DNA of 23,273 bases, from positions 1-23,273 of the forward strand of contig NZ_JAZGLW010000012.1 in the NCBI RefSeq assembly GCF_036409155.1, in the 5' to 3' direction. Source of the DNA: Mycobacterium sp. 050128 (GTDB lineage Bacteria; Actinomycetota; Actinomycetes; Mycobacteriales; Mycobacteriaceae). This document shows, piece after piece, positions 3,461 to 20,419 of the stretch; position 1 is the stretch's first letter, and the number at the start of each line of letters is the position of its first letter. A program made the translations under genes and the position numbers. Under the pieces are notes generated by a model. The model ran no database searches and was not told the DNA's origin. It saw only the letters and a list, made by a program, of their open reading frames with translations.

Positions 3461-3500
3461 CTGTTGCATACCCCCCGGGGGTGATATTATCACCACCATC
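3461..3500 (+). promoter_or_regulatory. Copper box 1 and probable leaderless promoter of lpqS copy 1
   Basis: The operator-like dyad TACCCC-CCG-GGGGTG lies at 3469-3483, one mismatch from perfect symmetry. A -10-like TATTAT follows at 3485-3490, and a weak -35-like CTGTTG lies at 3461-3466, so a repressor on the box would cover the promoter spacer. The ATG at 3501 is only 10 nt beyond the -10 and has no Shine-Dalgarno sequence, so the transcript is probably leaderless. The box resembles RicR/CsoR sites known from mycobacteria; the cognate repressor is likely the one encoded at 14837-15142. Confidence 0.75.
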
Positions 3501-3929
3501 ATGACTTCCCGGGGAGCCCGCTTTCGGCTGTGGCTGCGCTATGTAAGCGCAGTCGCTGTGCTCTTTTGGGCGGTGAGCCTCGGCGCTGGGTGCCACTTCG
3601 TTCATATGACTAGCGCGGCGCCGGCGGTGGCGTCCACGTCGCCAACCCAGGCAGGCCACGAAACGAGCGGCGTCACGGCGTCCCAGGTGTCGAACGCGCA
3701 CGCATCGACGCCGATCGTCGGCGGATGCCTACTCATACTTCGGACGTCACCGACAACGGACGCGGCTGGGCTTGTCCTCGCTGCCGCAGTCGCGGCTTTG
3801 GCTGGCGTAATGGCAGGGTCAGCCATACCGCCTACGCGCGGACCGCCTCCTTCTTTTCACGCCTTAAACGCCATTAGAGGCCGTTCGGGCCGAAGTATTT
3901 TGATCCAATTCTGTACCGCTCGTATCTGA
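3501..3929 (+). CDS. lpqS: LpqS-like copper-regulated envelope protein, copy 1
   Basis: A 142-residue secreted or membrane-associated protein. The N-terminus is basic and then hydrophobic (RYVSAVAVLFWAVSLGAGC), ending in a cysteine near residue 33; this resembles a lipobox but lacks the usual Leu at -3. A His/Thr/Ser-rich linker, a second hydrophobic stretch (about 86-108) and an ARGPP-like segment (TRGPPP) follow. The protein ends with GRSILIQFCTARI, close to the C-terminus that I recall for M. tuberculosis LpqS (RicR regulon). Start at 3501 is chosen because the copper box and -10 end just before it; an upstream in-frame ATG at 3447 would put the box inside the gene. It heads the lpqS-dao-DUF4396 unit and has an inverted paralogue at 19953-20387. 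The biochemical role of LpqS is not established. Confidence 0.72.
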   Translation: MTSRGARFRLWLRYVSAVAVLFWAVSLGAGCHFVHMTSAAPAVASTSPTQAGHETSGVTASQVSNAHASTPIVGGCLLILRTSPTTDAAGLVLAAAVAALAGVMAGSAIPPTRGPPPSFHALNAIRGRSGRSILIQFCTARI

Positions 3930-3990
3930 TAGGTCAGCCCTCAAGCTGTTGCGCTGAATGCTTCGGCTCGTTGGTGTTGTCCGAATCCGT

Positions 3991-4009
3991 CGCCGCGCAG
4001 ATCGCGGCG
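3991..4009 (+). promoter_or_regulatory. Hairpin upstream of dao copy 1
   Basis: Perfect inverted repeat CGCCGCG-cagat-CGCGGCG (7-bp stem, 5-nt loop) ending 22 nt before the dao ATG. The paralogous module carries a hairpin of the same stem and loop size at the same place (19805-19823) but with a different sequence, which suggests that the structure is what is kept. There is no T-tract, so it is unlikely to be a simple terminator; it may affect dao translation or processing between lpqS and dao. Confidence 0.5.
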
Positions 4010-4031
4010 TTGAAACAGAAACGAGAAATTC

Positions 4032-5201
4032 ATGAGTTTTGTCGCGTCTAGCTTCCAGGGTCAAGCAGCGGCGAGAGCCGGGTTGGTGACGGCACGCAAG
4101 GACCAGCCAGGTGCGTTGGTCATTGGTGCCGGAGTGAGCGGGTGGACCACCGCGTTGGTGCTGGCTCGCCAGGGCTGGCGAGTCGCTGTGGTCGCCGACC
4201 GGTTCGGCTCCGACACGGTGTCGACAGTGGCCGGTGCGCTGTGGGAATGGCCTCCCTCGGTGTGCGGCCGCCATCACGATGACCAGGCTGTGCTTGCCCG
4301 TTCAGCCGGTTGGGCAATGCATTCCTATGAGCGTTTCATGAGGCTTGCCGCCGATCCGCGCACCGGGGTAAGTCTTCGGCCCGCGGTCTTCTACTTCTCC
4401 CGCTCCGTGCGCGAGGATCCGGCCGAGTTGGAGAAAATGCTCGAGCTCGAAAAGTATGTACCGGGGTTCGCGCATGACGCCGCACTGATCGAAGCCCACG
4501 GTGTCAACCCGAACGCCGGGGTCGTCGACGCGTATTCGCATTTGGCACCCACCATCAATACCGACAGGTACCTGACCTGGCTGGCCAGCCAAGCCGAGGC
4601 CGAGGGTGTCAAGGCCATCCGGGCCAGTATCTCCGGTCCGCTCGAGGAACACGAGGATCGGTTGCTTTCCGAATACGGAGCTGACCTCATCGTCAACTGC
4701 AGCGGCCTGGGAGCGCGTCAGCTGGCCGGCGACCTGGCCATGGACCCGCACCGTGGAGCGCTGTTGCGTGTGATCAACGACGGGTCGTCGATACCACCGG
4801 TGACGGCGGCCCATGCGGTAGCCAACAACACCGGTAGCGACGACCAGAACATGGTCTTCATCGTGCCGCGTGGAGCTGACCGGCTGTTGCTGGGTGGGCT
4901 CGTCCAACCCGGTGAATACGACACGAACCTCACCCTGGATTACCCGCCGCTGCGCGAGATGCTCGAGCGTTGCACAGAGTTCCTGCCGATTTTGCGCGGT
5001 GCCCGGCTGGATCCGGTCGATCCTCTGCGGGTGGGGTTGCGGCCGTTCCGTGAAGGAGGTGTGCGACTCGAAATGCAGCCTGGCACTCGGATCGTGCACA
5101 ACTACGGTCACGGAGGTGCGGGCGTGACTTTGTCGTGGGGTTGTGCTCACGACGTTGCCGACCTAGCCGGCGCGATGCTAGTGCGGGAGGCTGCCGTCTG
5201 A
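4032..5201 (+). CDS. FAD-dependent D-amino-acid oxidase, copy 1
   Basis: A 389-residue flavoprotein of the DAO/DASPO family, which oxidises D-amino acids to 2-oxo acids with release of ammonia and hydrogen peroxide. The FAD-binding Rossmann motif GAGVSG is at residues 32-37. The VWEWPPSV-like segment (LWEWPPSVCG), the GLRPFREGGVRLE segment with the substrate-binding arginine, and the family signature around HNYGHGGAG (from His356) with TLSWGCA are all present. No signal peptide is seen, so it should be cytoplasmic. The paralogue at 18552-19784 starts at a point equal to GTG 4086, so the true start may be there rather than at ATG 4032. It sits between lpqS (102 nt upstream) and a DUF4396 gene, downstream of a copper box. 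Family certain; the substrate (D-amino acid type or D-aspartate) is not decidable. Confidence 0.9.
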   Translation: MSFVASSFQGQAAARAGLVTARKDQPGALVIGAGVSGWTTALVLARQGWRVAVVADRFGSDTVSTVAGALWEWPPSVCGRHHDDQAVLARSAGWAMHSYERFMRLAADPRTGVSLRPAVFYFSRSVREDPAELEKMLELEKYVPGFAHDAALIEAHGVNPNAGVVDAYSHLAPTINTDRYLTWLASQAEAEGVKAIRASISGPLEEHEDRLLSEYGADLIVNCSGLGARQLAGDLAMDPHRGALLRVINDGSSIPPVTAAHAVANNTGSDDQNMVFIVPRGADRLLLGGLVQPGEYDTNLTLDYPPLREMLERCTEFLPILRGARLDPVDPLRVGLRPFREGGVRLEMQPGTRIVHNYGHGGAGVTLSWGCAHDVADLAGAMLVREAAV

Positions 5202-5274
5202 GACGGCCGTGGCGAGGCCGCCGAAAGTGCCGGCGGAAGTTCGTTGTTCGATCGATGGGGAAAGGACCAAGATA

Positions 5275-6015
5275 ATGATGATGATGGCTATGCCCGCCCC
5301 AGAGTGGGTGACGGTATTGGGCTGGGTGGTGACGAGCGTCGGGGTGGTGCTGGCCGGTGTCATTCTCGCCGACATCTATGTTGGCGGTCATCGGCAGCCC
5401 GTACCCGCGATGGAGGCCGTGTGGCCGATCACCGCGATTTATGCCGGCCCGTTCGCATTGTGGGCCTACTACGGTTGGGGCCGACCAGCGACCCGGAAAT
5501 GGCAACGGCAACACGGGGAACCGCCTCGGTTGGGTTTTCCCGCGACGGTCGCAGTTGCCACTATTCCCGGTGGCGCCGCGTCAATGATTGGGCACGCGAT
5601 CGCCATGCCGCTGGTGATGTGGACCGGCATGACCATCGCACACCAGGCGGTGTGGCCGATGATCTTGCTGATTGCGGCGTTCGCCCTGCCGGTGCTGATT
5701 GTCTTCGAATACCACTGGCTCTCACGCACCGGCTCAGCGCCGACCGTCGGTCAGCGGCTGCGGGCCGCATCACTGATCTCGACGCTCGCGATTCTTGCGT
5801 TCGACGTGGGCATGGGCGCCTCGATGCTGCTTGTGGCCTTTGTATTGAAGTATTCGGGCACGTCGATGGCGCTGTGGCTGATCATGTGGGCCGGCATGTG
5901 GCTGGGCTTCGCGACTGCCTATCCCGTGGTGTGGTGGTGGCTCAAGAAGGATGCAACCGCGTCGCTGAGCCCGGCCGAGATCACCGACACAGAGCTAGTT
6001 GAGAGAGCACGCTAG
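5275..6015 (+). CDS. DUF4396 family membrane protein
   Basis: A 246-residue integral membrane protein with about six hydrophobic segments. After a short N-terminal helix (11-34) comes a PAMEAVWPITAIYAGPFALW segment (44-63), and then the core with GHAIAMPLVM (106-115), FEYHWLS (144-150), FDVGMGASML (176-185) and GMWLGFATAYPVVWWWLKK (207-225). These match what I recall of DUF4396. The function is unknown; members often occur next to copper or other metal genes. The start ATG 5275 follows an AAAGGA-type ribosome site, and an earlier in-frame start (GTG 5209) adds a segment unlike the paralogue. A broken paralogue follows dao copy 2 at 18265-18555, so lpqS-dao-DUF4396 is an inherited unit. Confidence 0.75.
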   Translation: MMMMAMPAPEWVTVLGWVVTSVGVVLAGVILADIYVGGHRQPVPAMEAVWPITAIYAGPFALWAYYGWGRPATRKWQRQHGEPPRLGFPATVAVATIPGGAASMIGHAIAMPLVMWTGMTIAHQAVWPMILLIAAFALPVLIVFEYHWLSRTGSAPTVGQRLRAASLISTLAILAFDVGMGASMLLVAFVLKYSGTSMALWLIMWAGMWLGFATAYPVVWWWLKKDATASLSPAEITDTELVERAR

Positions 6016-6112
6016 CTCAAAACCGTTGCTGTCGGCGCTGCCAACAGGGTCGATGTGTTCGATCGGTAACTCGGCCGCCACAGCAGTACCGAGCAGAAGG
6101 AGGGTGAAGGTT

Positions 6113-6874
6113 ATGCGTCGATCGGTTCGTTATCTCGCCGTTGTGGTCGCCCTCGCGGTGACGGCCGCGGCCCGCCCCCCGATTTTCAGTTCGGCGGCCG
6201 TCCCCTCCCCTGACGCGGCACCGCGCGTGGCCGAGATCCTTCCCTCCAATGGAGCGCTGGTAGGAGTCGCACACCCAGTAGTGGTGATCTTCACCGCGGC
6301 GGTGCCGGCGACTGATCGCGCCGCGATCGAGCGGACCATCCGCGTCACGTCACCGGGTAACATCACCGGTCGCTTCGAGTGGGTCGATGACCATGTCGTG
6401 CAGTGGGTTCCGGTTCGCTACTGGCCCGCTCACTCCCATGTCACGGTAAGCGTGCACGAGCTGGGTACGGGATTCGACACCGGCGATGCGCTGCTGGGGG
6501 TGGCCAGTATCTCTGCACACACCTTCACCGTCAGCAGGAACGGAGAGGTACTTCGGACCATGCCCGCATCGCTGGGCAAGGCCAGCCGCCCGACCCCGGT
6601 CGGCACCTTCACGGTGCTGGAAAAGCAACGCAGTGTAGTGATGGATTCGCGAACCATCGGTATCCCGCTGGACTCTTCAGAGGGTTACAAGCTCACCGTT
6701 GAGTACGCGGTGCGAGTCACCTGGGGCGGCGTGTATGTGCACTCAGCACCCTGGTCAGTCACCTCTCAGGGAAACTCCAATGTCAGCCACGGATGCATCA
6801 ACCTCAGCCCCGACAACGCCGCGTGGTATTTCGAACGCGTCACTATCGGCGATCCCGTGCAAGTCGTCGCATAG
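6113..6874 (+). CDS. Secreted L,D-transpeptidase (YkuD family)
   Basis: A 253-residue exported enzyme that forms 3-3 peptidoglycan cross-links, which involve D-amino-acid residues of the stem peptide. A signal-type N-terminus (RRSVRYLAVVVALAVTAAA) leads into an Ig-like domain (about 40-135) and then the YkuD domain. The catalytic signature is complete: His210 in VHSAPWS and Ser225-His226-Gly227-Cys228 in SHGCINLSP, with nucleophile Cys228. The length fits the smaller mycobacterial Ldt enzymes. The start is ATG 6113, which has a strong AAGGAGGG at 6097-6104. It lies 97 nt after the DUF4396 gene on the same strand and may share its transcript. No terminator is visible after it. Assignment is firm; which Ldt subtype is not decided. 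Confidence 0.9.
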   Translation: MRRSVRYLAVVVALAVTAAARPPIFSSAAVPSPDAAPRVAEILPSNGALVGVAHPVVVIFTAAVPATDRAAIERTIRVTSPGNITGRFEWVDDHVVQWVPVRYWPAHSHVTVSVHELGTGFDTGDALLGVASISAHTFTVSRNGEVLRTMPASLGKASRPTPVGTFTVLEKQRSVVMDSRTIGIPLDSSEGYKLTVEYAVRVTWGGVYVHSAPWSVTSQGNSNVSHGCINLSPDNAAWYFERVTIGDPVQVVA

Positions 6875-7131
6875 CGGGCCGATGTCCAGAAGCCCCTACC
6901 CGCACCCCCACCAACCCCCACCAACAGCACGCAGCACCAACCACCCGATTACACGAGGTCCGCCTTCACGACAGCTAACGGCCAACGAGCAATGCTGCGC
7001 TAAGTACGAAACCAATAAGACCAGCCCGCGACCCCAATCGCCAGGTCCTGCCCTGGGAGCGCCTATATATTGCCGAGGCTGGGGCCGCGCGCGTGCGGCC
7101 AAGATCGGCCGTCGTGGTCGGATACCCGACA
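6875..7131. other. Intergenic region, nothing recognised
   Basis: C-rich, low-complexity sequence (repeated CCCCCACCAA-type runs near 6900-6930) and no convincing gene, repeat or hairpin. The promoter of the blaI-like gene begins at its right end. Confidence 0.5.
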
Positions 7132-7174
7132 TTGTGTGTGCACCATAGTTTAATCTACTATGCACGTACGTAGT
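7132..7174 (+). promoter_or_regulatory. Promoter of blaI with operator site A
   Basis: A -35-like TTGTGT at 7132-7137 is 18 nt from a -10-like TACTAT at 7156-7161. The dyad CTAC-N11-GTAG (7155-7173) lies over the -10. Read on the minus strand it is CTACGTAC-N7-GTAG, the same sequence as at 8559-8577 and 11148-11166. Its position fits autorepression by the downstream BlaI-type protein. Confidence 0.65.
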
Positions 7175-7222
7175 TGAGTACATCGCGCGGTGTGGGATGC
7201 GGGGCCGGTGGGAGGCGTGACG

Positions 7223-7600
7223 GTGCGGGTGCGCGGGTTCGGAGAGTTGGAAGCCGTGGTGATCGACCGCATCTGGGACCGGGATGGAGCGACGAGCGTC
7301 CGCGAAATTTTCGACGAGCTGGCTGCCCAACGCGAGATCGCCTACACCACCGTCATGTCAACCATGGACAACCTGCACACCAAAGGGTGGCTGGCGCGTG
7401 AACGAGACGGCAAGGCCTACCGGTACTGGCCGACGTTGACCCGCGAGCAGCACAGTGCCCGGCTTATGCGTGAGGCGCTCGACGGCGGGGGGCGCGCCGA
7501 GCTGGTGCTTAGCCACTTCCTCGAACAGATCAGCCCAGAAGAATCCGCGCGGTTGCGTGCTGCGTTGCAGCGGCTGCCCAGACGACGCCGACGCAAGTAA
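7223..7600 (+). CDS. blaI: BlaI/MecI-type winged-helix repressor
   Basis: A 125-residue transcriptional repressor of the BlaI/MecI/CopY family. These dimers bind CTAC/GTAG-like dyads; in M. tuberculosis BlaI controls beta-lactamase and ATP-synthase-linked genes. The winged-helix domain covers about residues 1-75: FGELEAVVIDRIW, then TSVREIFDELAAQREIAYTTVMSTMDNLHTKGWL (recognition helix around TTVMSTMDNL), then a wing with RERDGKAYRYWP. The C-terminal dimerisation helices (75-115) end in a basic tail (RRRRRK). GTG 7223 is chosen because GGAGG lies 7 nt before it; GTG 7217 and 7190 are alternatives. No blaR sensor-protease or beta-lactamase gene is in the window, so the signal that removes it from DNA is unknown. 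It lacks the Cys-rich C-terminus of copper-sensing CopY. Confidence 0.85.
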   Translation: MRVRGFGELEAVVIDRIWDRDGATSVREIFDELAAQREIAYTTVMSTMDNLHTKGWLARERDGKAYRYWPTLTREQHSARLMREALDGGGRAELVLSHFLEQISPEESARLRAALQRLPRRRRRK

Positions 7601-7693
7601 ACCATGCCGGGCCCAGGGGCTCTGCCTGCAGCATGTCGAATATGGCTGCCTTGCAGTGGCATTGGTGCGAAGTGACTTCGCGTTCGTCGGCGG

Positions 7694-8259
7694 CTACGGT
7701 GGCCCCATCATGCCGCCGTGTCCCGTCATGCCGCCAGAGCCGCCCAGCATGCCCTACATCATCGCGGGCATCCCGTCGTCGTGGACGAAGCCGCTCACCT
7801 CACGGGCGTGAGCACGGATCGGGTCGATCAACGCGGGATCATCACTGGTTTCCTCGGCGATGACGCCCCTAGGTGTCAGGGTCAACCGGCGGCGGTAGCC
7901 CCGGGCGTTGCCGAACAGCATCGATAGGCCCGAGCCCATACATATGACCTCCGTGCCGTGGTCAAGATGGGAGTACATGCTCGACACGTGGTCGTGCAGT
8001 TGGGCGGCCAGGTCCGGCGAGTTCGACTCGGTGGTGGTGCGCACCCCGCCGGGGATCTCCTCGACCGTGCGACTGATCTCCGTGGGCCGGCGGAACATCT
8101 CCGTATACGCGCTCATGTCGGCCGGATTGGCAGCCCATCATGCCGCCGTCGGTCAACCGGATCCGCAGGATCGGCGTCCCGAGCGCGCAGCGCGCGCATA
8201 TACCCCAGACCGGCCAGCACGCAGGCGCCCAGCGCCGCGCGCCGGGTGAACCTATCCAC
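7694..8259 (-). pseudogene. Broken Tat-exported, Met-rich conserved protein
   Basis: The gene begins at GTG 8259 behind a strong AGGAGGTG (8264-8271). It starts with a twin-arginine-like signal (FTRRAALGACVLAGLG), then shifts frame near 8190 to GTPILRIRLTDGGMMG. It shifts again near 8117 to a 120-residue stretch (8116-7754: MFRRPTEISRTVEEIPGG, then RGVIAEETSDDPALIDPIRAHAREVSGFV). The final part resembles a conserved hypothetical family that I recall only by its TSDDP and IxAHAxxVSxFV pattern. A TAG at 7756-7754 interrupts a Met/Gly/His-rich tail that continues in the same frame to 7694 (GMLGGSGGMTGHGGMMGPP). Met-rich tails often bind copper. An alternative reading is two coupled small genes, because the signal frame ends in an ATGA overlap at 8116-8113. 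Confidence 0.6.
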
Positions 8260-8580: not shown

Positions 8581-8605
8581 ATCAGGGTGGTAACGCTTGG
8601 GTTGG

Positions 8606-8633: not shown

Positions 8634-8651
8634 ACAACAGGAGGTGACTGA

Positions 8652-9142
8652 GTGCCAGGAGCCACCGCAGGATCGGAGTGGCAAGTCGCGGCGATGGCGG
8701 CTCTCTCCGACGAGCGCTCCGCCGGCTTATGGCGATACACAATGGGTTTAACGAGCGCCCAGCGTCGCGCCGAAGACGTCGTCCGCGAGCCGCGCCAGCG
8801 GAGGCGGCAGCAATCACGAGCCGCAGCCGCCGAACGATCGGCGCGAGGGCCGCTCTTCACCATGGCGCGCAGCGTGCTCGTCGACGAGCGAGGCAGCAAC
8901 TCAAGCACGCCTCGGGTGACCACTCCTGACGAGATCGGCGCCGCGCTGGGCCAGCTGGTGATCCTCGACGCAATCGGCCAACCGTGGGCCGGGCATCGGG
9001 CCGTGATCGAATTGCTCGTGCCATCGGGGATCGACTACCACACGGATTGCTTCAGACGTTCGAATCGCCGCAACGACGGTGAAGTCACGATTCGTGTTAT
9101 CCCGCCCGGGCACTGCGGGTCACCCTGCACGAGACCGGGTGA
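8652..9142 (+). pseudogene. sigL: SigL-like ECF sigma factor, broken
   Basis: Remnant of an extracytoplasmic-function sigma factor closest in memory to M. tuberculosis SigL. From GTG 8652 (GGAGGTGA upstream) the first frame gives a weakened region 2 (LWRYTMGLT, AEDVVREP, LFTMARSVLVDERGS). The interdomain segment follows, shortened relative to SigL (TPDEIGAALGQLVILDAIGQ, HRAVIE). At about 9012 the frame shifts into region 4 (RIASDVRIAATTVKSRF, matching the SigL TAQIATDLGIAEGTVKSR helix-turn-helix). A second shift near 9105 leads to the natural C-terminus LRVTLHETG and TGA at 9140-9142. The part following AEDVV is also badly diverged. With region 2.4 and region 4 disrupted it cannot be a working sigma factor. 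The anti-sigma gene follows 147 nt later. Confidence 0.82.
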
Positions 9143-9289
9143 CACATCGAGCACGCGGCCGCTCATCCGGAGGCCCGTCGGCGGCGAATGCCAAATGGCG
9201 CAAGTTGGTTGGCTTGAGCCTAAAGCCGTCCGCCAGCCCGTCCATGCGCCCGAAATCTCAAATGCGGTGCTACCAGCTGGGGATGGAAG

Positions 9290-10021
9290 ATGATGAGGAC
9301 ATCGTTACGCGGTCCCGGCCCGACTGGTGACAACCACCACCACGCGATGTGGGATGCCGCCTACGTCTTGGGATCACTATGCACCACCGATTGGCGCGAA
9401 TTCGAGGCGCACATGGCCGGCTGCCCGCAATGCCGACAAGCCATCGCTGAACTCAGTGGCATTCCGGCCATGCTGTCACAGCTTGACCGCAATGACATCG
9501 CCGCGATCAACAAGGCAGACCAGCCATCCGCCGCATCGGAGATGCCACCGGAGTTGCTCCCAACGCTACTGGCCGCGGTGCATTCGCGTCGCCGCCGAAC
9601 CCGCGTGATGACCTGGATGGGTTGGGCCGCCGCTGCCATCATTCTGACGATCGGTGTGCTGATCGGGGTTCACAGCAGTTTCTTGACGTCCACCCCGCAG
9701 CAGTCGACCGTGTCGGCCCTGCCAATGGACCAGGTCGGGACCACCCTACTGTCCTCGACCGTATCGCTTGACGGCCAGCAGTGGGGTACGACCATCGCGC
9801 TGAAGTTCGTGTGCCTGGCTCCACCGGATGCCCCCCACGATACGGTGGCACTGGTCGTGGTAGGTCGCGACGGCAGCCAAACCCGGCTGGCGTCTTGGGT
9901 GGCCATCCCCCGCCACACGGCGACACCCACCGGCAGCGTTTCGATGCCGATCAGCCAGATCGCTGCAGTACAAGTGGTTTTGGCCGACAACGGTCACGTG
10001 ATGCTGCAACGCTCGATATAA
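9290..10021 (+). CDS. rslA: RslA-like zinc anti-sigma factor, orphaned
   Basis: A 243-residue anti-sigma factor of the ZAS class, very like M. tuberculosis RslA, which holds SigL inactive at the membrane and releases it on oxidation. The N-terminal cytoplasmic domain has AMWDAAYVLGSL and the zinc motif His41-x3-Cys45-x2-Cys48 (HMAGCPQC). After PPELLPTLLAAVHSRRRR, one membrane segment spans about 107-127. The outer domain keeps family blocks (VSALPMDQVGT, VVVGRDGSQTRLASW, QIAAVQVVLADNGHV). No frameshift is seen and the length is normal (I recall about 250 in RslA). Its partner sigma gene just upstream is a pseudogene, so it may act on a chromosomal SigL elsewhere or be on its way to loss. ATG 9290 and 9293 are both possible starts. 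Confidence 0.9.
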   Translation: MMRTSLRGPGPTGDNHHHAMWDAAYVLGSLCTTDWREFEAHMAGCPQCRQAIAELSGIPAMLSQLDRNDIAAINKADQPSAASEMPPELLPTLLAAVHSRRRRTRVMTWMGWAAAAIILTIGVLIGVHSSFLTSTPQQSTVSALPMDQVGTTLLSSTVSLDGQQWGTTIALKFVCLAPPDAPHDTVALVVVGRDGSQTRLASWVAIPRHTATPTGSVSMPISQIAAVQVVLADNGHVMLQRSI

Positions 10022-11760: not shown

Positions 11761-11775
11761 TACCCCGGGGGGGTA
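11761..11775 (+). promoter_or_regulatory. Copper box 2 (copA unit)
   Basis: Perfect dyad TACCCC-GGG-GGGGTA. A -10-like TAGGCT at 11774-11779 overlaps its right end, so a bound repressor would block the promoter. It lies 297 nt before the copA ATG and 10 nt before the ATG of a possible leader ORF. Confidence 0.75.
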
Positions 11776-11785
11776 GGCTCGGATT

Positions 11786-12058
11786 ATGTTGGACCGGTCA
11801 TGCGGCGTTCGCGCTTCAGGAGTGCCGAGCACGCCGCCCCGACGCGGCTTAGCGTCCGCCAATGGGTTCTCCAAAACACGTGCTGTCGTCCACGGCTGTG
11901 GGCTCGTGGCGGTGTCACGCCCTGGGGGTCGCCGTGGTGTCATCCGTCAGCAGCTGTCTGGGGTGTCGACGCCTGGGGCGTATCAGATCTTGCCGAAGGA
12001 GCTGGCGGATAGGCCATCTGGGCCATCCACAGCCTACTTCCTAATTCGTCTCAGTTGA
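11786..12058 (+). CDS. Possible leader ORF between copper box 2 and copA
   Basis: A 90-codon frame whose ATG lies 6 nt after the -10-like TAGGCT, so it could be read from a leaderless transcript. It stops 14 nt before the copA ATG. The peptide has no recognised motif and only two cysteines (SCGV, HGCG). It may be a short protein, a coupling leader or chance; codon-bias analysis would be needed to choose. Confidence 0.25.
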
Positions 12059-12072: not shown

Positions 12073-14622
12073 ATGTCCGGTGTCGACGTTGCCGTTCTGG
12101 TTGGGACGGCGTTGGTGATCGCGGGGTTGGCGTGGTATTTCTTTGCCCCGCGACGCGCGCAGGCCGCTACCGTCGGCGGTGGTGTGCAGCGGCTTCAGAT
12201 TAGGGTGAGCGGTGGGTATAGCCCAAACGTCGTAGAGGTGCGCCAAGGTGTTACGGTGGAGATCGAGTTCGATCGGCAAGAGACCGGGGATTGCACATCG
12301 CGGGTCGTATTTCCCGACCTCCATTTGTCGGCGGCGCTGCCCGCTTACCAGCGCACCACAGTGCGGTTTACCCCGGAGCAGGCGGGATCGTTCGGGTTCG
12401 CCTGCGGCATGAACATGGTCTCAGGCACACTCGTCGTCACCCCCAACGACCTGGCCACGCCCCCTGGCGAATCTGAAACGCCCACCGCCGCTTCAGGTTG
12501 CGCGCCAGCCGATGGTGTGGCCGAGCCGGCCGCCGCCGAGATCGAGGCTACCCAGGCCGAAGAACGTCGCGCCGAGAGCGCCGACCTGGTCCGTAGGGTG
12601 GTGATCGGCGCGGCATTTACCCTTCCGGTGCTGTATGCGGTAATGGCTCACCCCTTGGGCGCGAAGTGGGTGCCGGGGATCTTGTTCGACCATTGGGTGC
12701 AGCTTGCCTTCATCACCCCGGTGATGTTTTACGTGGGGTGGCCGATCCACCGCACCGGCTGGCTGGCGTTGGCGCACCGCAGCGCCGACATGAACAGCCT
12801 CATCACATTGGGCACCCTGGCGGCCTATGGTTACAGTCTGTTGGTCACCGTCGCCTCTGGGGTCTTGCCGGCCGAAGTTCGCGACGTGTATTTCGAGGCG
12901 GTCGGAGTGATCCTGACCCTGATAATGCTGGGCCGATTGCTGGAAGCCCGCGCCAAGGCTGGCACCGGTGAAGCTATCCGCGCGTTACTCGGGTTGCAAG
13001 CCCGCACGGCCCGTGTCGTGCGGGGCGGCATCGAAACCGAGCTTCCCGTCGATGAGGTCATCGTCGGCGACCAGATCGTGATCCACCCCGGTGAGAAAAT
13101 CCCGGTCGATGCAACAGTGTTGTCTGGGCAGTCTGCCGTTGACGAGTCGATGGTGACCGGCGAATCGATACCAGTCACCAAATACACTGGCGACGCTGTC
13201 ATCGGCGCGACGCTCAACACCACCGGGTCGTTGCGGGTGCGTGCAACCAAGGTCGGTGCGGACACCATGCTGGCCCAGATCGTCCGCATGGTGCAGCAGG
13301 CACAGGCATCCAGAGCGCCGATCCAGCGGCTAGCCGACGCCATCTCGGCCTACTTCGTGCCGGTCGTGATTGCTACTGCCCTCATCACCTTCGTAATCTG
13401 GTTCATCGCCGGACCGACACCCACGTTGACCCAAGCGTTGGTATCGGCAGTGGCGGTGCTCATCATCGCCTGCCCTTGCGCACTGGGCCTGGCAACCCCG
13501 CTATCGATTATGGTCGCCACCGGCAAAGGCGCCCGCGCAGGCATCTTGATCCGCTCGGCGGAGGCACTGGAGACCGCGCAAAAGCTCGATACCATCGTGC
13601 TGGACAAGACCGGAACCATCACCACCGGCAAACCTGCTCTCACCGACGTCCACGCGACCGGGACCGTGGCGGAGAACGAACTGCTCATGCTGGTTGCCGG
13701 AGCCGAAGCCGACAGCGAGCACCCCATAGCCAGCGCGGTAATAGCCGGTGCCCGTGGCCGCGGCATCACCGTTCCCGCCCCAGCGGCGTTTGATTCAGTC
13801 ACCGGCAAAGGGGTCCAGGCTACGGTCGCTGGCCGTAGTGTCCTGGTTGGCACCGCGACCTTGCTGGCTGAAAACGGTATCGACACAGCCGAACTCGAGC
13901 AGATCAGCACCGAGCTCGCAGCCGCGGGCAAGACCCCGGTACTCGCCGCGGTCGACAGCTACCCGGCCGGCGTCATCGCCGTGGCCGACACCGTTAAGGG
14001 CGACTCCGTCTCCGCCATCGCCGCACTACGCGAGTTGGGTCTGCACGTGGTGATGATCAGCGGGGACAATGCCCGCACGGCAGCCGCGATCGCAGGCCAG
14101 GTCGGGATCGACCGAGTGCTCGCCGAGGTCTTGCCCGAACACAAAGCGGGTGAGGTCCGCCGGCTGCAAGCCGAAGGACGCCAGGTCGGTATGGTCGGTG
14201 ACGGTATCAACGATGCTCCCGCCCTAGCCCAAGCCGACGTCGGATTAGCGATCGGCACCGGCACGGATGTGGCCATCGAAGCCGCCGACATCACCCTAAT
14301 TTCAGGGTCACTGGCCGGGGTGGTTACCGCGATCCGGCTCTCCCGCGCCACCATGCGCAACATCCGGCAGAACCTCTTTTTCGCCCTGATCTACAACGCC
14401 GTTGGCATACCGCTCGCAGCCGGCGCGCTGTATCCGCTGCTGGGGCTGCGGCTCTCACCGATGGTCGCCGCCGCCGCGATGGCCCTATCGTCACTATCAG
14501 TCGTCGGCAACGCCAACCGCCTACGCCGCTACCCCATCAAGCCGCTGCCGACCACTGAGGCACCCGCGGTCGAACCCCACAGGGAAGTCGGCGCTGGTCA
14601 ACGCGAATCCCTCGCCACGTAG
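12073..14622 (+). CDS. copA: Cu(I)-exporting P1B-type ATPase with N-terminal cupredoxin domain
   Basis: An 849-residue copper-exporting ATPase. The N-terminus has a membrane segment (about 4-25) and a cupredoxin-like domain (about 38-123) with [13 protein letters not shown], Cys74 and FACGMNM (Cys111, Met113, Met115) in place of the usual CxxC HMA domain. The ATPase core has TGES 362-365 (actuator), Cys467-Pro-Cys469 in the transport helix, DKTGT with the phosphorylated Asp511, HP 550-551 (SEHPIASAV) and GDGIND 709-714. The last two helices carry Tyr774-Asn775 and Met803-x2-Ser806, the Cu(I)-specific P1B-1 pattern. ATG 12073 is preferred over TTG 12055 because GAGGAG lies between them. It is downstream of copper box 2 and followed by the RicR-like repressor gene. 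Function is firm; the ORF is intact. Confidence 0.95.
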
Positions 14623-14680: not shown

Positions 14681-14836
14681 GGCCTTGGCTGACGTCACTA
14701 ATCGCGCGAACGCACGCGCAGGCACGAAACCGATATTCTATAAACCCCGCAGGCTAGACTAGGCGTCAGTGGTCTCATTGGTAGCCGACCTACTGGTCAC
14801 CGCAGCGGCAACGCCGAGAGCGACCCGTCGACGAAA

Positions 14837-15142
14837 ATGCTGGGAGGCCAGTTGGAAACCACACACGGATATGTTGCGCACAAGGACGGCTACGCCAAAC
14901 GGCTGCGCCGAATCGAAGGCCAGGTCCGTGGCATCGCGAAGATGATCGACGACGACAAGTACTGCATCGACATCCTCACCCAGATCAGCGCAGCCAGCAG
15001 CGCTCTGCGAGCCGTGGCTCTAAACTTGCTCGACGATCACCTGGATAATTGCATAAGTCAAGCGATTACCCACGGAGGCGACGAAGTCGAAGTGAAGCTG
15101 GCCGAGGCCTCTGCCGCCATTGCCCGGCTGGTTCGCTCCTAA
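14837..15142 (+). CDS. ricR: RicR/CsoR-type copper-sensing repressor
   Basis: A 101-residue all-helical repressor of the CsoR family that leaves DNA when it binds Cu(I). The ligand triad is complete: Cys43 (KYCIDIL), His68 and Cys72 (LLDDHLDNC). Signature blocks YAKRLRRIEGQVRGIAKMI and SSALRAVALNLL are intact. The C-terminus KLAEASAAIARLVRS and N-terminal HGYVAHKDGYAKRL match RicR (Rv0190) in my memory better than CsoR (Rv0967). The start is ATG 14837; TTG 14852 (after GGAGG) would remove five residues. It lies 214 nt after copA. No copper box is seen just before it, so it may rely on the copA transcript or its own unregulated promoter. It is the natural regulator of the five copper boxes in this window. 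Confidence 0.92.
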   Translation: MLGGQLETTHGYVAHKDGYAKRLRRIEGQVRGIAKMIDDDKYCIDILTQISAASSALRAVALNLLDDHLDNCISQAITHGGDEVEVKLAEASAAIARLVRS

Positions 15143-15684: not shown

Positions 15685-15954
15685 TCAGGGCCTTGGGTTT
15701 GTGCGCGGCACCGGGGGCGTAGGGTGCGGCGACACGATTAAGCCCGTGGGGGGTGCTCCCGCTCCGTCGACACCGCCAGGAGCCGCAAAGTCGGGACCGC
15801 CTGGGGCGGGCGGCGCCGGCGTCACGCTCGAAGCAGGGTCCGCAACTGGTGTGGTCGTACTGCTTGCCAATTCGCTGCCGCCAAATCCGACCGCTAAAAC
15901 TAACGCTGCCGCTCCGCCGAACAGCGCGATCGCCGCTTTCGTTTGAGATTTCAT
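15685..15954 (-). CDS. Small copper-box-controlled secreted protein A
   Basis: An 89-residue protein that begins KSQTKAAIALFGGAAALVLAVGFGG, a signal peptide or membrane anchor. It continues as a Pro/Ala/Gly/Thr-rich segment (TPAPPAPGGPDFAAPGG, SPHPTPPVP) without cysteine. ATG 15954 follows AGGAGAG, and the frame is open further upstream but would then run through the copper box at 16009-16023. It resembles protein B (16673-16945, opposite strand) over the first 30 residues, including QxKAAIAL and GG. No function is known; the context implies a copper-induced envelope or exported protein. Confidence 0.7.
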   Translation of the reverse strand: MKSQTKAAIALFGGAAALVLAVGFGGSELASSTTTPVADPASSVTPAPPAPGGPDFAAPGGVDGAGAPPTGLIVSPHPTPPVPRTNPRP

Positions 15955-16008
15955 CAGACTCTCCTGTGTTTGGTCGTTCGTCCTAACAACCCCAATGTTG
16001 CATGCAGA

Positions 16009-16023
16009 TACCCCCACGGGGTA
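16009..16023 (-). promoter_or_regulatory. Copper box 3 (small secreted protein A)
   Basis: Perfect dyad TACCCC-CAC-GGGGTA, 54 nt upstream of ATG 15954. A -10-like TATCTG (minus strand, 16010-16005) overlaps the downstream edge of the box. Confidence 0.75.
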
Positions 16024-16026
16024 GGG

Positions 16027-16600
16027 ACTTAGGTCCCCGCAGTTAGGGCAATCAGGCCTTCCAAGTGGCGGTGGAATTTGCACGGTGACGGCGGCGTTCC
16101 CGCGAATTCGTTCGCCGAAACGTGACGGCATAACGAGGTGAGGCAACACCGCCGCCAGGGTGGTCCAGTCCAGCATGACGCCGCCGATCTCGAAGGGCAT
16201 GGGCAGGATGGTGAGAAATTCACCCAATTCGGTAGTTGGCGCGATCAAGCCGCGTGGTATAGGTGATGACCGTTCGCAGGGTTCGCGGGCACGCTGCGCT
16301 GCAAAAGGCGAAGGGGATCGAGGCAGCGCGGGGGTTTACGGGTCCGCCTGATCTAACGATGATCCCGCCTGCGTCAGGTTAGCCATTGGTAACGTTGCGG
16401 GAGATAACCCAGGAATTAGGCCGCGCTACACCGATCTCCAGTTACCAACCCACCTGCGCGGATGTGCGGCATCGACCGTCGGGGACCCATTCCCGCGGAG
16501 CCCTACTGCCTCGTGAAATATCCGCCATCACAGGAGGCCCGCTCCTTCGCCTCGACACCGCCATGGAGGCTGGATTGCCTTTCACAATAGGGACCGAATG
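16027..16600. other. Intergenic region between the two small secreted protein genes
   Basis: No convincing gene. A minus-strand frame (16248 to 15955) reads into protein A but contains copper box 3, so it is not taken as coding. A short plus-strand frame (about 38 codons from 16266) ends at 16382 and is unrecognised. Confidence 0.4.
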
Positions 16601-16603
16601 CCC

Positions 16604-16618
16604 TACCCCCGGAGGGCA
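16604..16618 (+). promoter_or_regulatory. Copper box 4, degenerate (small secreted protein B)
   Basis: TACCCC-CGG-AGGGCA, two mismatches in the right half, 54 nt before ATG 16673. The distance equals that of box 3 from protein A, which supports it despite the mismatches. Confidence 0.6.
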
Positions 16619-16672
16619 TCGGCTGGAAGACTTTGTCTTCGCACGAACACCCAATCACGAGCGGAGAGCGCG

Positions 16673-16945
16673 ATGTTATCTCAACCGAAAGCGGCGATCG
16701 CGCTGGCCGGCGGCGCTATCATGTTTGCGTTAGCAGCCGGGATCGGTAGCGTTGTGTTACGAGGCAACACAACGCTACCCGCGCAGACCGCTGCCCCAAC
16801 TTCCACCGTGGCGCCCCATCCATCACCGATCACTCCTGACCGCGCGACACGCAATCCTCCTGAATGCGTCGAGCCCTACTGTGGCGTCCTGTTAAACCCG
16901 CCACCGCGCGGGGACGCACTGTGGATGCCCCGCGGAGCACCATGA
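16673..16945 (+). CDS. Small copper-box-controlled secreted protein B
   Basis: A 90-residue relative of protein A. The N-terminus LSQPKAAIALAGGAIMFALAAGIGSVVL is a signal peptide or anchor. A Thr/Pro-rich segment (PAQTAAPTSTVAPHPSP) and a C-terminal part with two cysteines (ECVEPYCGVLLNPPPRG) follow. The CxxxxxC pair may bind metal or form a disulphide and is absent from protein A. The C-terminal ECVEPYCG recalls the CTKPFCGPG tail of the CopCD fusion. ATG 16673 follows CGGAGAG. It is divergent from protein A across about 720 bp and 91 nt upstream of the universal stress protein gene. Confidence 0.72.
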   Translation: MLSQPKAAIALAGGAIMFALAAGIGSVVLRGNTTLPAQTAAPTSTVAPHPSPITPDRATRNPPECVEPYCGVLLNPPPRGDALWMPRGAP

Positions 16946-17036
16946 GACCGTCGACCCCGCTGTTCGATGTTCGTACGCAACGCATTACACAGCCTCGCGA
17001 TCCCCGTAGTCGCCGTCCCCACGGAAGGACAGTCAG

Positions 17037-17954
17037 ATGGCCAGCAACAACCACCATTTCGGCGTGCTGGTTGGTGTCGACGGGTCAGCTGGTTCCGATG
17101 CCGCCGTCCGCTGGGCTGCGCGCGAATCAGTGCTTCGTAAGCGGCGGCTCACGCTTATGCACGCCTCACCCCGATCGCCACTACCGCGCCTCGCTCCTTT
17201 CACTCCCACAGAGGCGCAGCACCGCCACGAAACTGACCTGCAAGCCATCAACGACCGTGCGACCAGGATCGCAGAAAGCGCTGTCGGAGAAGCTCATCCA
17301 GCGGAAATCGACAGTCAGTTGCACTTTTCCCCGCCCATGCCGACTCTGGTCGATATGTCTCGAGCCGCGGACCTCGTCGTCGTAGGCGCCCGTGGACTGG
17401 GCACCGTGCGTCGCGTATTGCTGGGCTCGGTCAGCGCCGGACTGATCCATCGAGCCCATTGCCCTGTCGCCGTCATTCACCGGGAGGTTTCGGCCCCGTC
17501 GCCGGCTGCCGTTGGTGGGCCCGTGCTGTTGGGCGTCGATGGATCACCAGCGTCGGAATTGGCCACTGCAATCGCATTCGCAGAAGCCTCGATGCGGGGC
17601 GCTCGATTGGTGGCTCTACACGCGTGGACCGACACCGATGCAGCCCAGGTTGCGAGCATGGAAGACTCCGTGCAGCAAGCGGCAGCCAAGGAAGTCCTCG
17701 CCGAAAGACTCGCCGGCTGGCAGGAACGCTATCCCGACGTCAGCGTGCTCCGCGCTGTTGTGTATGACCAGCCGGCCGCCCACCTGCTTGAGCGTTCCAA
17801 GTCAGCCCAACTCCTCGTCGTCGGCAGCCACGGCCGCGGCGGATTCGCCGGAATGATGCTCGGCTCAGTCAGCTCCGCAGTGGCTCAAGCGGCCCGCATA
17901 CCGGTGATCGTTGCGCGCCACCCCAAGCATCAGCAACGGTCTGCGAATCAGTAA
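17037..17954 (+). CDS. Tandem universal stress protein
   Basis: A 305-residue cytoplasmic protein with two Usp domains. Domain 1 (about 8-148) starts GVLVGVDGS and has the nucleotide-binding pattern G-x2-G-x9-G-S at Gly117, Gly120 and Gly130-Ser131. Domain 2 (about 162-295) starts LLGVDGS and has the same pattern at Gly263, Gly266 and Gly276-Ser277. Both keep the ATP-binding residues, so it should be the ATP-binding type common in mycobacteria. Start ATG 17037 follows AAGGAC. It may be co-transcribed with protein B from copper box 4. It is convergent with the minus-strand dao module. Confidence 0.93.
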
Positions 17955-18264
17955 AGCCACGCGCGTTTGGTTTCGCGAATCAGCCACACCAACCTAGACA
18001 TCACAGCGGTTTTGGGGAGTTATCTAGCAGTCGTTGGGTCCATTATATGGCCGGCCCCGACGGGGGGAACGAGCTGGCCAGTGACGTAATACCACGCGCA
18101 GCGAGCGCTGCGCATCATGTGAGCCTAGTCGTGTAATAGCCCGGCGCTCAACGCTTCCCGTACGGCCAGACGCCAACGGGCCACCACCGCGCCAACGTGT
18201 ATCTGCCCCGAATTGCACCTCGGCGGATATGTCACGAAACCGATCATCTCCTACTTCGAGGGTA
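17955..18264. other. Convergent intergenic region
   Basis: Lies between usp (+) and the DUF4396 remnant (-). The missing C-terminal four fifths of the second DUF4396 copy would be expected here, but no frame shows its GHAIAMPL or AYPVVWWW blocks. No terminator was recognised. Confidence 0.45.
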
Positions 18265-18555
18265 TTAGCACTGCCTCGGCCGGCGCCCCTTACGCTTGGG
18301 ACAATTGTTCGCGACAACAAACCGAGGGGCGTGCACATCGGGTTGGCTGGGCATTTCTTTCGCGCCCGCAGAACCACCGGCCGGTGCACTAATAGAGATC
18401 GCGGAGATCGGCCAACCTGCTTCCATCGCGGGCAGCGGCGGCCGGCCACCGCCCAGATCGATGTCTGCGATCATGACGCCGGCCACCATCATCGCGAGAA
18501 TGGTCACGACCGATGGCAAGGGCGTCATCCACGTCGGTGCGGGCTTTGTCATCAT
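18265..18555 (-). pseudogene. DUF4396 protein remnant, copy 2
   Basis: ATG 18555 overlaps the dao copy 2 stop (ATGA) and follows AGGAAGGAC. The first 50 or so residues parallel the intact copy at 5275-6015: KPAPTWMTPL, VVTILAMMVAGVMIADIDLGG, PLPAMEAGWPISAI. After that the frame leaves the family (an in-frame stop is met in one alternative frame near TATTAG) and ends at 18265 with unrelated basic sequence. The conserved core is gone, so it is non-functional. Confidence 0.72.
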
Positions 18556-19784
18556 TGTTTTAGTCCTTCCTGTGGCGACGCAGGCGCTGAATCCTGTTGA
18601 AACACTTGCGATTTATTCATGAAGAGGCCGAGTGGGCTCGCCGCTTCGCTGTTGCTGTGACGGCGGGTTTTGAGACGGCGCTGGTGAGCGAGCAACACGG
18701 CGGCCAGGTCAGCAACCTCGCGGGCGCAGCCCCACGACAGGGTGACGCCGGCGTCGCCGTGGCCGTAGTTGTGAACGATGCAAGCGTCGGGTTCGATCTG
18801 CAGTCGTACCCCACCTTCGCGGAACGGCTGCAGGCCCACCCATAGCGGGTCGAACGAGTCCAGTTGGGCAACCCGCAAAGTCGGCAGGAATTCGGTGCAG
18901 CGGTCGAGCATCTCGCGCAGCGGCGGGTAGTTGTCCAGCGTGAGATCGGTGTCGAATTTGCCCGGCTCCACCAGAGCGCCCAACAAAAGTCGATCAGCAC
19001 CGCGGGGTGCAATGAAGACGGCGTCGTGGTTGTCCGTGCTCGGATCGCCGGCCACCGCGTGCACCGCGGTCACGCGCGGCATGGAGGTGCCGTCATTGAC
19101 TACCCGTAACAGCGCAGCCCGGTGCGGTTGCACGGTCGGATCGCAGGCCAATTCGCGGGCTCCCAAACCAGAGCAGTTCACAATCAGGTCTGTCCCGAAT
19201 TCGGCCAGCAGCTTGTCGTGCTGCTCGGCTAGCGGGCCGCAGATGCTGCGCCGAACGACGGTCACGCCGGCGGCTTGGGCCTGCCCAGCTAGCCATCTCA
19301 GATACTTGGCGGTATCGATGGTGGGTGCCGGATAGGAATAGGCGTCCACCACCCCACAGCCCGCGTTGACACCGTATTCGGCGATCAGCCCGACGTCGTG
19401 CACAAACCCGGGCAGTAGCTGCTTGACGACGGCCATTTTCGTCATCGCAGCCCGATCCTGCTCGATGGGGCGTGAGAAATAGAACACCATGGGTCGCACG
19501 ATGACGCCGGTGCGGTGATCGGCGGCTAGTCCGCTGAAGCGCAGGTAGGAATCCAACGCCCACACGGCCGCGCGAGCATGCACCGCCTGATTGTGGTGGC
19601 GACCGCACACCGATGGTGGCCACTCCCACACAGCGCCCGCGACACTCGACACCGTGTCAGCGTCAAAGCGGTTGGCCGCTACGACGACTCGCCATCCTCG
19701 CCGGGCCAACACCAGTGCGGTGGTCCCTCCACTGATACCGGCCCCGATCACCAGTGCGCTCGGCTGATGTGTTCGCGCCCTCAC
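18552..19784 (-). CDS. FAD-dependent D-amino-acid oxidase, copy 2
   Basis: A 410-residue paralogue of the oxidase at 4032-5201, with identical residues at well over half of positions by eye. The FAD motif GAGISG is at residues 14-19. VWEWPPSVCGRHH, VNCSGLGARELA, GLQPFREGGVRL and HNYGHGDAGVTLSWGCA are present. The arginine block is GLQP rather than GLRP, and the glycine after HNYGHG is Asp (GHGD versus GHGG), both worth checking against activity. The C-terminus is about 35 residues longer than in copy 1 (from QRRLKTRR to EGLKQ) and looks like read-through of former spacer. GTG 19784 follows GGGAGGTG. It is downstream of lpqS copy 2 and copper box 5. Confidence 0.88.
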   Translation of the reverse strand: MRARTHQPSALVIGAGISGGTTALVLARRGWRVVVAANRFDADTVSSVAGAVWEWPPSVCGRHHNQAVHARAAVWALDSYLRFSGLAADHRTGVIVRPMVFYFSRPIEQDRAAMTKMAVVKQLLPGFVHDVGLIAEYGVNAGCGVVDAYSYPAPTIDTAKYLRWLAGQAQAAGVTVVRRSICGPLAEQHDKLLAEFGTDLIVNCSGLGARELACDPTVQPHRAALLRVVNDGTSMPRVTAVHAVAGDPSTDNHDAVFIAPRGADRLLLGALVEPGKFDTDLTLDNYPPLREMLDRCTEFLPTLRVAQLDSFDPLWVGLQPFREGGVRLQIEPDACIVHNYGHGDAGVTLSWGCAREVADLAAVLLAHQRRLKTRRHSNSEAASPLGLFMNKSQVFQQDSAPASPQEGLKQ

Positions 19785-19804
19785 AACCGCACCTCCCGTC
19801 GGCG

Positions 19805-19823
19805 CTTGTCCTTGATGGACAAG
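19805..19823 (-). promoter_or_regulatory. Hairpin upstream of dao copy 2
   Basis: Perfect inverted repeat CTTGTCC-ttgat-GGACAAG (plus strand), 7-bp stem and 5-nt loop, ending 20 nt before the dao GTG. It is the structural counterpart of 3991-4009 with an unrelated sequence. Confidence 0.5.
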
Positions 19824-19952
19824 AGCTAGTTAGTAGGCCCAGATAGGCCGGACTCATGTTCTGTGGTGAACGCCGCGAGCAGGGTTGTGGCGACGACTAC
19901 CGACAGCAGCAAAAGCCGCGGGGCAACCCACCCACGGCTTAAGACTTAGCAA

Positions 19953-20387
19953 TCAGGTACGAGTGATGCAAAAGCGGGTCAAGATACTTCGACCCGAACG
20001 AGGAAAGGCAAAGGCGATAGGCCGCGGCGGGCCGCGGGCTGCTAACACCACAGGCCAAGTCAGCGACCCGGTCAACAACACCAGCGCGAGAACAGCGGCG
20101 AGCGCAACGAGATCGGTTGTTGCGCAGGACTGTACGGCATGCTTGCATCCGCGATCGATCAGCAGGTCCGAGCCGTCGCCAACCGATGCAGACTGGACTA
20201 CTGCAACGCCGCTATGGTCGCTGACCGCAGTGGAGATCGACGAACTTCGAACACCGGAAACGCCCATATCGGACATGCTCATAGCGGGAAAGCGACACCC
20301 GCCGGCCACGGCGATCACCCAGAAGACGGCCGCCACCACGGTGGTATAGCGCAGCCACCTTCTGTAGCGAGCAATTTTCACGATCAT
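19953..20387 (-). CDS. lpqS: LpqS-like copper-regulated envelope protein, copy 2
   Basis: A 144-residue paralogue of the protein at 3501-3929. The N-terminus is basic/hydrophobic (RYRRWLRYTTVVAAVFWVIAVAGGC) with a cysteine at a lipobox-like site that lacks the -3 Leu. A Ser/Val-rich middle contains a CKHAVQSC cysteine pair. A hydrophobic segment (TDLVALAAVLALVLLTG), ARGPPRP and the conserved end GRSILTRFCITRT follow; the last closely matches the LpqS terminus that I recall (LLTRFCLARR). ATG 20387 lies 17 nt from copper box 5, exactly as in copy 1, with no Shine-Dalgarno sequence. An in-frame upstream extension to 20642 would cross the box and is rejected. It leads the minus-strand lpqS-dao-DUF4396 remnant unit. 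Confidence 0.75.
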   Translation of the reverse strand: MIVKIARYRRWLRYTTVVAAVFWVIAVAGGCRFPAMSMSDMGVSGVRSSSISTAVSDHSGVAVVQSASVGDGSDLLIDRGCKHAVQSCATTDLVALAAVLALVLLTGSLTWPVVLAARGPPRPIAFAFPRSGRSILTRFCITRT

Positions 20388-20397
20388 GGCAACACCC

Positions 20398-20419
20398 ACG
20401 CTAGCACCCCCCGGGGGTA
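20398..20419 (-). promoter_or_regulatory. Copper box 5 and leaderless promoter of lpqS copy 2
   Basis: Minus-strand TACCCC-CGG-GGGGTG (20419-20405), one mismatch from symmetry and the same mismatch as box 1. A weak -10-like TAGCGT at 20403-20398 lies 10 nt before the ATG, the same spacing as TATTAT in copy 1. Confidence 0.72.

Follow-up and report, generated by a model that had tools for sequence, protein, structure and literature searches.

Probable copper boxes and adjoining genes in the window

The window studied here is the whole of contig NZ_JAZGLW010000012.1 (C12; 23,273 nt) of Mycobacterium sp. 050128 (the source genome, G000), and our subject is a set of short dyads in it, which we read as candidate operators of a copper regulon under a RicR-type repressor. 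Five dyads of the form TACCCC-N3-GGGGTA (the 12-letter box) had been noticed in a first-pass annotation of this DNA, and all five are found where it had placed them, with 1, 0, 0, 2 and 1 mismatches in order. Box 1 (3469..3483; TACCCCCCGGGGGTG) lies 17 nt before lpqS1, and box 2 (11761..11775; exact) lies 297 nt before a cupredoxin-CopA gene. Box 3 (16009..16023; exact) and box 4 (16604..16618) are each 54 nt before the gene of a small secreted protein (small proteins 1 and 2), and box 5 (20405..20419) is 17 nt before lpqS2 on the minus strand; the boxes themselves are given without strand.

No other site with up to 2 mismatches to the 12-letter box exists in the window. The looser 10-letter core, TACCC-N5-GGGTA, searched with up to 1 mismatch, gives 5 window sites, which by their letters are the same five boxes. 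With up to 3 mismatches, 11 window sites are found vs a shuffle mean of 8.4, so the window is not enriched at this level. One more sequence, at 1426..1440 (no strand; TACCCCCCTATAGTA), is a possible decayed box with 3 mismatches and an intact left half, 426 nt before the copC-copD gene; it was left out of the site count, and its letters are identical in a plasmid of M. lentiflavum (see below).

As a set, the five boxes hold up unevenly: four are solid, and the box at 16604 is weak by itself. A 2-mismatch match of this kind weighs little alone, because such matches occur at near-random frequency genome-wide, and what speaks for this box is its fixed spacing to a paralogous gene. The proposal that the boxes look like copper operators is well supported: they are of the RicR type, like those before the chromosomal ricR and mymT genes. 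A likeness to the published RicR consensus is presumed.

Frequency of the box in the source genome and in the genus

The first-pass annotation had asked whether the motif occurs at random frequency across the genome, and the answer depends on the threshold. With the reversed pattern as control, the 12-letter box is near random in the source genome at up to 2 mismatches (156 sites vs 133 reversed), but clearly above the control at up to 1 mismatch (20 vs 5) and as the exact box (5 vs 0). The sites are also clustered. The window contains two of the five exact sites (binomial 1e-4) and, with up to 1 mismatch allowed, 4 of the 20 (7e-7); 9 of these 20 are on contigs C12, C17 and C19, which make up 0.7% of the genome (6e-15). 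The exact 10-letter core occurs 14 times vs 3 times reversed, and half of these sites (7 of 14; 2.6e-12) are on the same three contigs.

Besides the two in the window, the exact genome boxes are located in the ricR/ilvD intergenic region, before an HMA-domain copper ATPase gene and before a lipoprotein-like gene on C19, and a single-mismatch box (C1:1158783) precedes mymT. The regulon had been described as local, and this part of the earlier description does not stand, as the same box type is found before the chromosomal ricR, mymT and copper ATPase genes and before genes on C17 and C19.

Across the genus, the exact 12-letter box was found at 397 sites in 116 of 118 genomes, vs 9 sites for the reversed pattern (about 44-fold). 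Thirty loci were fetched around exact genus boxes; when rows from the mis-framed RicR_win query are disregarded, 10 contain ricR with ilvD, 6 a copper ATPase gene, 2 mymT and 1 just a RicR-like gene. In the RicR regulon of M. tuberculosis, ricR, mymT, lpqS, cysK2, mmcO, Rv2963, socAB and Rv1706A are listed by passages of PMC10470581 and PMC10141476, and the gene content of the 30 loci fits that regulon (ricR, mymT, lpqS, mmcO). On this evidence there is a real, well-conserved regulon, predicted to be of the RicR copper type, which extends beyond the window.

Several boxes stand before genes of other kinds. An exact core box at C1:216340-216354 (L007:2041-2055) lies 34 nt before the gene of a DUF5134 protein (TTG start), and DUF5134 genes also adjoin copper-ATPase-like genes in two other genomes (G113 and G071); because of the core box and these neighbours, DUF5134 may be a further copper-regulon gene. 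The exact box on C19 (C19:11410-11424; L105) precedes a 302-aa lipoprotein-like gene without Pfam match, relatives of which (33-39%) adjoin copper-ATPase sequences at two loci (L156 and L201). A single-mismatch box at C20:8857-8871 (L106), 127 nt before an open reading frame (ORF) that resembles, by eye, a mercuric-reductase-type flavoprotein at its N-terminus, may be chance.

lpqS and D-amino-acid oxidase units

Both lpqS1 (3501..3929, plus strand) and lpqS2 (19953..20387, minus strand) exceed the NCBIfam LpqS cut-off of 35 bits (49.7 and 90.1 bits), and each begins 17 nt after its box, just as two lpqS copies beside boxes had been proposed. Behind lpqS1 on the plus strand is DAO1 (4032..5201; Pfam DAO), a D-amino-acid oxidase (DAO) family flavoprotein gene with matches to solved D-amino-acid oxidases, then a DUF4396 gene (5209..6015; Pfam DUF4396) starting 7 nt after DAO1, and then an L,D-transpeptidase gene (6113..6874; Pfam YkuD and Big_10), a paralogue of LdtMt1 whose start was placed by eye in an ORF opening at 5999. 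Behind lpqS2 is DAO2 (18552..19784, minus strand; Pfam DAO), a DAO1 paralogue (66% to DAO1). The HNYGHGG and GLRPFR stretches of DAO1 align with solved D-amino-acid oxidases; judged from such matches DAO1 and DAO2 are in the D-amino-acid oxidase family, and their oxidase activity is putative.

Homologues of DAO1 (E up to 1e-60) were found at 17 loci in 15 of 297 genus genomes. Leaving aside the source genome's own two loci and the two of G317, which by coordinates corresponds to the M. lentiflavum plasmid, there remain 13 loci in 13 genomes, some of which may be close relatives of one another. At 11 of the 13, lpqS is directly upstream of DAO, and at 8 of these 11 a box with up to 1 mismatch is located just before lpqS. 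In the other 3 lpqS-DAO promoters the proximal box, 18 nt before the start, is decayed and keeps its left half, and 126-129 nt further upstream there is a core box with 0-1 mismatches. DUF4396 follows DAO at 9 of the 13 loci. Because the lpqS-DAO order, the lpqS boxes and DUF4396 recur in this way across genomes, DAO and DUF4396 can be tied to the RicR regulon, as the first-pass annotation had them; what its gene set overlooked is the L,D-transpeptidase following DUF4396.

The footprint of the box was summarized from 10 lpqS promoters, 2 of the window and 8 of other genomes. In this set, which was picked for a good box and leaves out the 3 decayed promoters and two near-identical M. lentiflavum copies, mean conservation is 1.88 bits in the box vs 0.45 over the preceding 45 nt, and 9 of the 10 have a distance of exactly 17 nt from box to start codon. 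A terminal TG, counted as a mismatch in the window boxes, is common to all ten promoters, so it is the lpqS form of the operator and not decay. A single-sequence lpqS search matched 4 of 61 genomes and misses real copies (on contig-706 of G015 and on C19 of the source genome, both above the LpqS cut-off).

The L,D-transpeptidase has the catalytic SHGC within a YkuD domain, its closest solved relatives are L,D-transpeptidase 1/LdtA, and it shares 71% identity with the source genome's chromosomal copy. Homologues exist in 291 of 297 genus genomes, so it is not a copper marker alone.

None of the paper listings and passages covered mentions DAO or DUF4396 as a RicR-regulon member. DUF4396 proteins appear at the edge of an Acidihalobacter metal-resistance cluster in a passage of PMC7760498. 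In the parts of PMC7711268 seen, a paper focused on H2S, the mammalian D-amino-acid oxidase is described as contributing to H2S formation when D-cysteine is its substrate, and no link of the enzyme to RicR was found there. By analogy, sulfide from a DAO route could precipitate copper.

An accessory RicR-type repressor

The repressor gene of the window, ricR2 (14852..15142, plus strand), starts at a TTG, and an ATG at 14837 is also possible. Its product reaches 174.2 bits against the NCBIfam RicR model (NF052430; cut-off 175), and the chromosomal RicR reaches 182.1. The Cys-His-Cys triad ascribed to it is in place, as C38, H63 and C67 (counted from the TTG at 14852) align with the chromosomal RicR. 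A 39-row tree places the window repressor with accessory RicRs of other species, outside a 25-row group that contains all 21 ilvD-linked RicRs (support 97/89); the finer order is unsure because 22 of 34 inner branches are open. Judged by this tree, it is of an accessory RicR lineage and not an orthologue of the ilvD-linked chromosomal RicR.

Seven accessory ricR genes of other genomes fall outside the 25-row group as well (the M. lentiflavum gene was left out as a near copy), and 5 of the 7 are preceded by an exact core box at no more than 400 nt. In G015 and G113, an exact box lies 92 nt ahead of the accessory ricR gene. The G015 island contains an accessory ricR and an lpqS (66.2 bits) divergent from a multicopper oxidase gene, with two boxes at or between the starts. 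In G122 the order is box, homologous cupredoxin-CopA (76%; this box is exact), box and accessory ricR, with an L,D-transpeptidase (63%) about 3 kb further. Accessory RicR paralogues thus travel with RicR-box genes.

Before ricR2 itself, a degenerate box is located at 14742..14756 (no strand; AAACCCCGCAGGCTA), with 3 core mismatches, 96 nt before the gene and identical in M. lentiflavum. Tentatively, it may be an eroded operator, although a 3-mismatch match is weak evidence. Autoregulation of ricR2 is unsure, as its own promoter holds this degenerate match only.

CopA, small secreted proteins and other genes

The gene behind box 2 (12073..14622, plus strand) encodes a predicted copper-exporting P-type ATPase with an N-terminal Pfam Cupredoxin_1 domain and an E1-E2_ATPase domain; it scores above the cut-off of TIGR01511, and no HMA domain was matched in it. 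Relatives aligned near full length, including the N-terminal part, come from Streptomyces, Chloroflexi and others. When contigs were scanned with this CopA, 80 loci were retained, most of them general copper ATPases of distant bacteria. A 90-aa ORF (11786-12058) in the CopA leader was rejected as a gene: because of indels and an early stop in M. lentiflavum, it is probably no gene.

Small protein 1 (15685..15954, minus strand) and small protein 2 (16673..16945, plus strand) both have, as read by eye from the translations, an N-terminal hydrophobic segment and many prolines, and neither has a Pfam match. Small protein 2 ends in a conserved CVEPYCGVLLNPPP tail, which is kept in the five relatives found of it and is similar to the CTKPFCG ending of the CopC-CopD protein. 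The two genes are paralogous, each with a box 54 nt before the start, and they had rightly been counted in the set. A small-protein search of 100 genomes at E up to 0.01 gave matches in 16; judged by eye, most of these are weak or lie in other frames, and for the match in G062 a box is about 400 nt before the gene. tblastn with small protein 1 against plasmids returned nothing, although matching DNA shows that the M. lentiflavum plasmid has the gene, so this search is blind to it. A universal stress protein gene (usp; 17037..17954, plus strand; Pfam Usp) comes next, 91 nt after small protein 2; the copper link suggested for it is conjectural.

Left of box 1 is the gene of the CopC-CopD fusion protein (1867..3294, plus strand; Pfam CopC and CopD). 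After the lpqS1 unit, a BlaI/MecI/CopY-family regulator gene (7190..7600, plus strand) matches NCBIfam CopY_TcrY, MecI and BlaI, all below cut-offs, and is so annotated in M. lentiflavum. It is followed by a remnant-looking sigma-factor ORF (8652-9293; 61 bits vs a cut-off of 202) and by a gene (9290-10021) whose protein is annotated zf-HC2 in M. lentiflavum. Neither Rfam families at gathering threshold nor tRNA genes were found in the window.

A metal island of probable plasmid type

Contigs C12, C17 and C19 match the metal-gene region of the 224,738-bp plasmid NZ_CP092424.2 of M. lentiflavum ATCC 51985 in blocks that are mostly 90-98% identical. The five main blocks of the window carry the same genes there at 91-98% DNA identity, but csoR, ATPase, cation-diffusion-facilitator and other genes separate the two halves of the window on that plasmid, and the box at 16604 is further decayed. 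The plasmid has 7 sites with up to 1 mismatch, and a single 39-kb metal-gene stretch (18.7 to 57.7 kb) takes in all of them. As contig C8 of the source genome has a relaxase stretch 89% identical to that of the M. lentiflavum plasmid, the window probably belongs to a related plasmid.

The other two contigs hold further copies of the same genes. On C17, a third lpqS (79.6 bits vs 35), with a half-decayed box 18 nt before it, is followed by a DAO fragment and DUF4396, and a third small-protein gene has an exact core box. On C19 there are a fourth lpqS (101.7 bits), a fourth small-protein gene (with Cys) without a good box, and a csoR gene with a CsoR-type operator. The boxes of the extra lpqS copies (C17:3476-5485 and C19:6246-7190) are decayed or missing, as if these were spare copies losing copper control. 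At the contig edge, window positions 1-95 are 100% identical to a stretch of the Mycolicibacterium aubagnense plasmid NZ_AP022578.1, probably a repeat or the end of a mobile element.

Weighing the alternatives

We consider it very probable that the window is part of a plasmid-type metal island of a Mycobacterium near M. lentiflavum, wired into the RicR copper regulon. The boxes, their enrichment in genome and genus, the fixed spacing, the conservation, the neighbourhoods and the lineage of the repressor are all observed directly. That the dyads are just chance palindromes of G+C-rich DNA, or terminator-like hairpins, would agree with the near-random count at up to 2 mismatches, but such an origin is hardly credible given the genus counts of exact sites, and the sites are sharply conserved and stand shortly before start codons at a fixed distance. 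Counts and footprint strongly oppose it for four of the five boxes, and chance palindromes were rejected on the counts against controls, the clustering and the footprint. The regulator could also be CsoR proper, that is, the product of csoR on C19 and not a RicR. This csoR-like gene matches the csoR-DUF1490-P-type ATPase run of the M. lentiflavum plasmid, and CsoR operators are likewise C/G-tract dyads; the first-pass annotation had in fact spoken of a RicR/CsoR regulon. The published CsoR operator, as given in a passage of PMC10141476, is GTAGCCCACCCC-N4-GGGGTGGGATAC. The csoR promoter on C19, like that of M. lentiflavum, carries an operator (TACCCACCCCGGGTGGGGTGGGGTA on C19) that is longer than and different from the window boxes and resembles the published site. 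The window boxes differ from that site in their letters, match those at ricR and mymT, and were rejected as CsoR operators. The window repressor is also about 37% identical to the C19 CsoR over 68 residues, and the CsoR and RicR regulons of M. tuberculosis are reported as distinct in the part of PMC4801387 consulted. Control by CsoR is therefore very improbable, and of the double name only the RicR half fits.

A nearer competitor concedes the boxes at 3469, 11761, 16009 and 20405 and takes the one at 16604 as decayed or a chance match, which would place small protein 2 and usp outside copper control; we regard this as a serious possibility, somewhat below even. With 156 such sites in the genome, a stretch of 23 kb should contain about 0.5 of them; this box has 3 mismatches in M. 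lentiflavum, and decayed boxes exist elsewhere on the island, for example before the third lpqS on C17. Against this, its spacing of 54 nt equals that of the paralogous small protein 1, its core has 1 mismatch only, and the third paralogue on C17 is preceded by an exact core box. Other observations weigh against the RicR regulon itself as we draw it. Apart from the near-random count and the 2 mismatches of box 4 (3 in M. lentiflavum), neither copC-copD nor ricR2 has a good box of its own, and the window repressor is 0.8 bits below the RicR cut-off. An exact core box is present within 400 nt upstream of only 11 of the 21 ilvD-linked ricR genes in the tree set. Two of the 13 DAO loci are without lpqS, namely G118, with no box, and G015, where DAO is beside the accessory ricR with an exact box. 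Given the 3 sites of the reversed control, a few of the 14 exact core sites may be chance; 11 of the 30 exact-box loci match no query protein used, and the footprint promoters had been selected.

Comparison with known systems and proposed mechanism

The system shares with the M. tuberculosis RicR regulon its RicR-type repressor, the control of lpqS, ricR and mymT by what appears to be the same box type and, in G015, an lpqS divergent from a multicopper oxidase with boxes. In M. tuberculosis, lpqS is presumably followed by cysK2, while here it is followed by DAO, DUF4396 and the L,D-transpeptidase, with lpqS and DAO multiplied. The cupredoxin-CopA, the small Pro/Cys proteins and a plasmid-type island with its own RicR paralogue are further differences. 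The kind of regulon is thus known, and its predicted contents, DAO and DUF4396 among them, are new. The CsoR operon (csoR-DUF1490-ctpV) belongs to the same repressor superfamily and is part of the same island, on C19 as well as on the M. lentiflavum plasmid, but it differs in operator and repressor lineage. Plasmid-borne copper resistance was reportedly described in 1987 by Erardi (in the reference list of PMC11877719) in M. scrofulaceum, a non-tuberculous mycobacterium, to which the island is likened by description only.

From the reported behaviour of RicR we infer how the boxes may work in binding and induction. The chromosomal RicR, RicR2 or both would sit on the TACCC-N5-GGGTA boxes of the promoters, and Cu(I) at the Cys-His-Cys site would free the repressor from them. 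A -10-like TANNNT is often seen by eye just downstream of the box (TAGCAT in several lpqS promoters, TACATT at mymT, TAGGGT at ricR); with the box just upstream of the -10, a bound repressor should therefore block RNA polymerase, and Cu(I) should lift the block. Release would switch on one unit with LpqS, the D-amino-acid oxidase, DUF4396 and the extra L,D-transpeptidase, and a second with LpqS2 and DAO2. It would also turn on the cupredoxin-CopA exporter, perhaps ricR2 as the next gene along, and the small secreted Pro/Cys proteins, and the chromosomal mymT, ricR and second copper ATPase genes would respond together with the island genes. RicR binding, copper release, operon structure and expression are all predicted here from sequence.

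A more speculative extension, which we think unlikely on present evidence, is a cell-wall arm of the RicR regulon in non-tuberculous mycobacteria. It is offered because L,D-transpeptidases are reported to be inhibited by copper (in a passage of PMC8263019). Copper would then induce an extra LdtMt1-type transpeptidase, a D-amino-acid oxidase and DUF4396, so sustaining peptidoglycan cross-linking and handling D-amino acids under copper, and the CVEPYCG of the small secreted proteins and the CTKPFCG of CopC-CopD would be a shared extramembrane Cu(I)-binding motif.

In summary, DAO and DUF4396 appear to be linked to copper via a conserved promoter and not just by their neighbourhood. As an extra L,D-transpeptidase belongs to the same gene run, part of the answer to copper stress may lie in the cell wall, and the island offers a list of genes with which plasmid-borne copper resistance can be tested in environmental mycobacteria.

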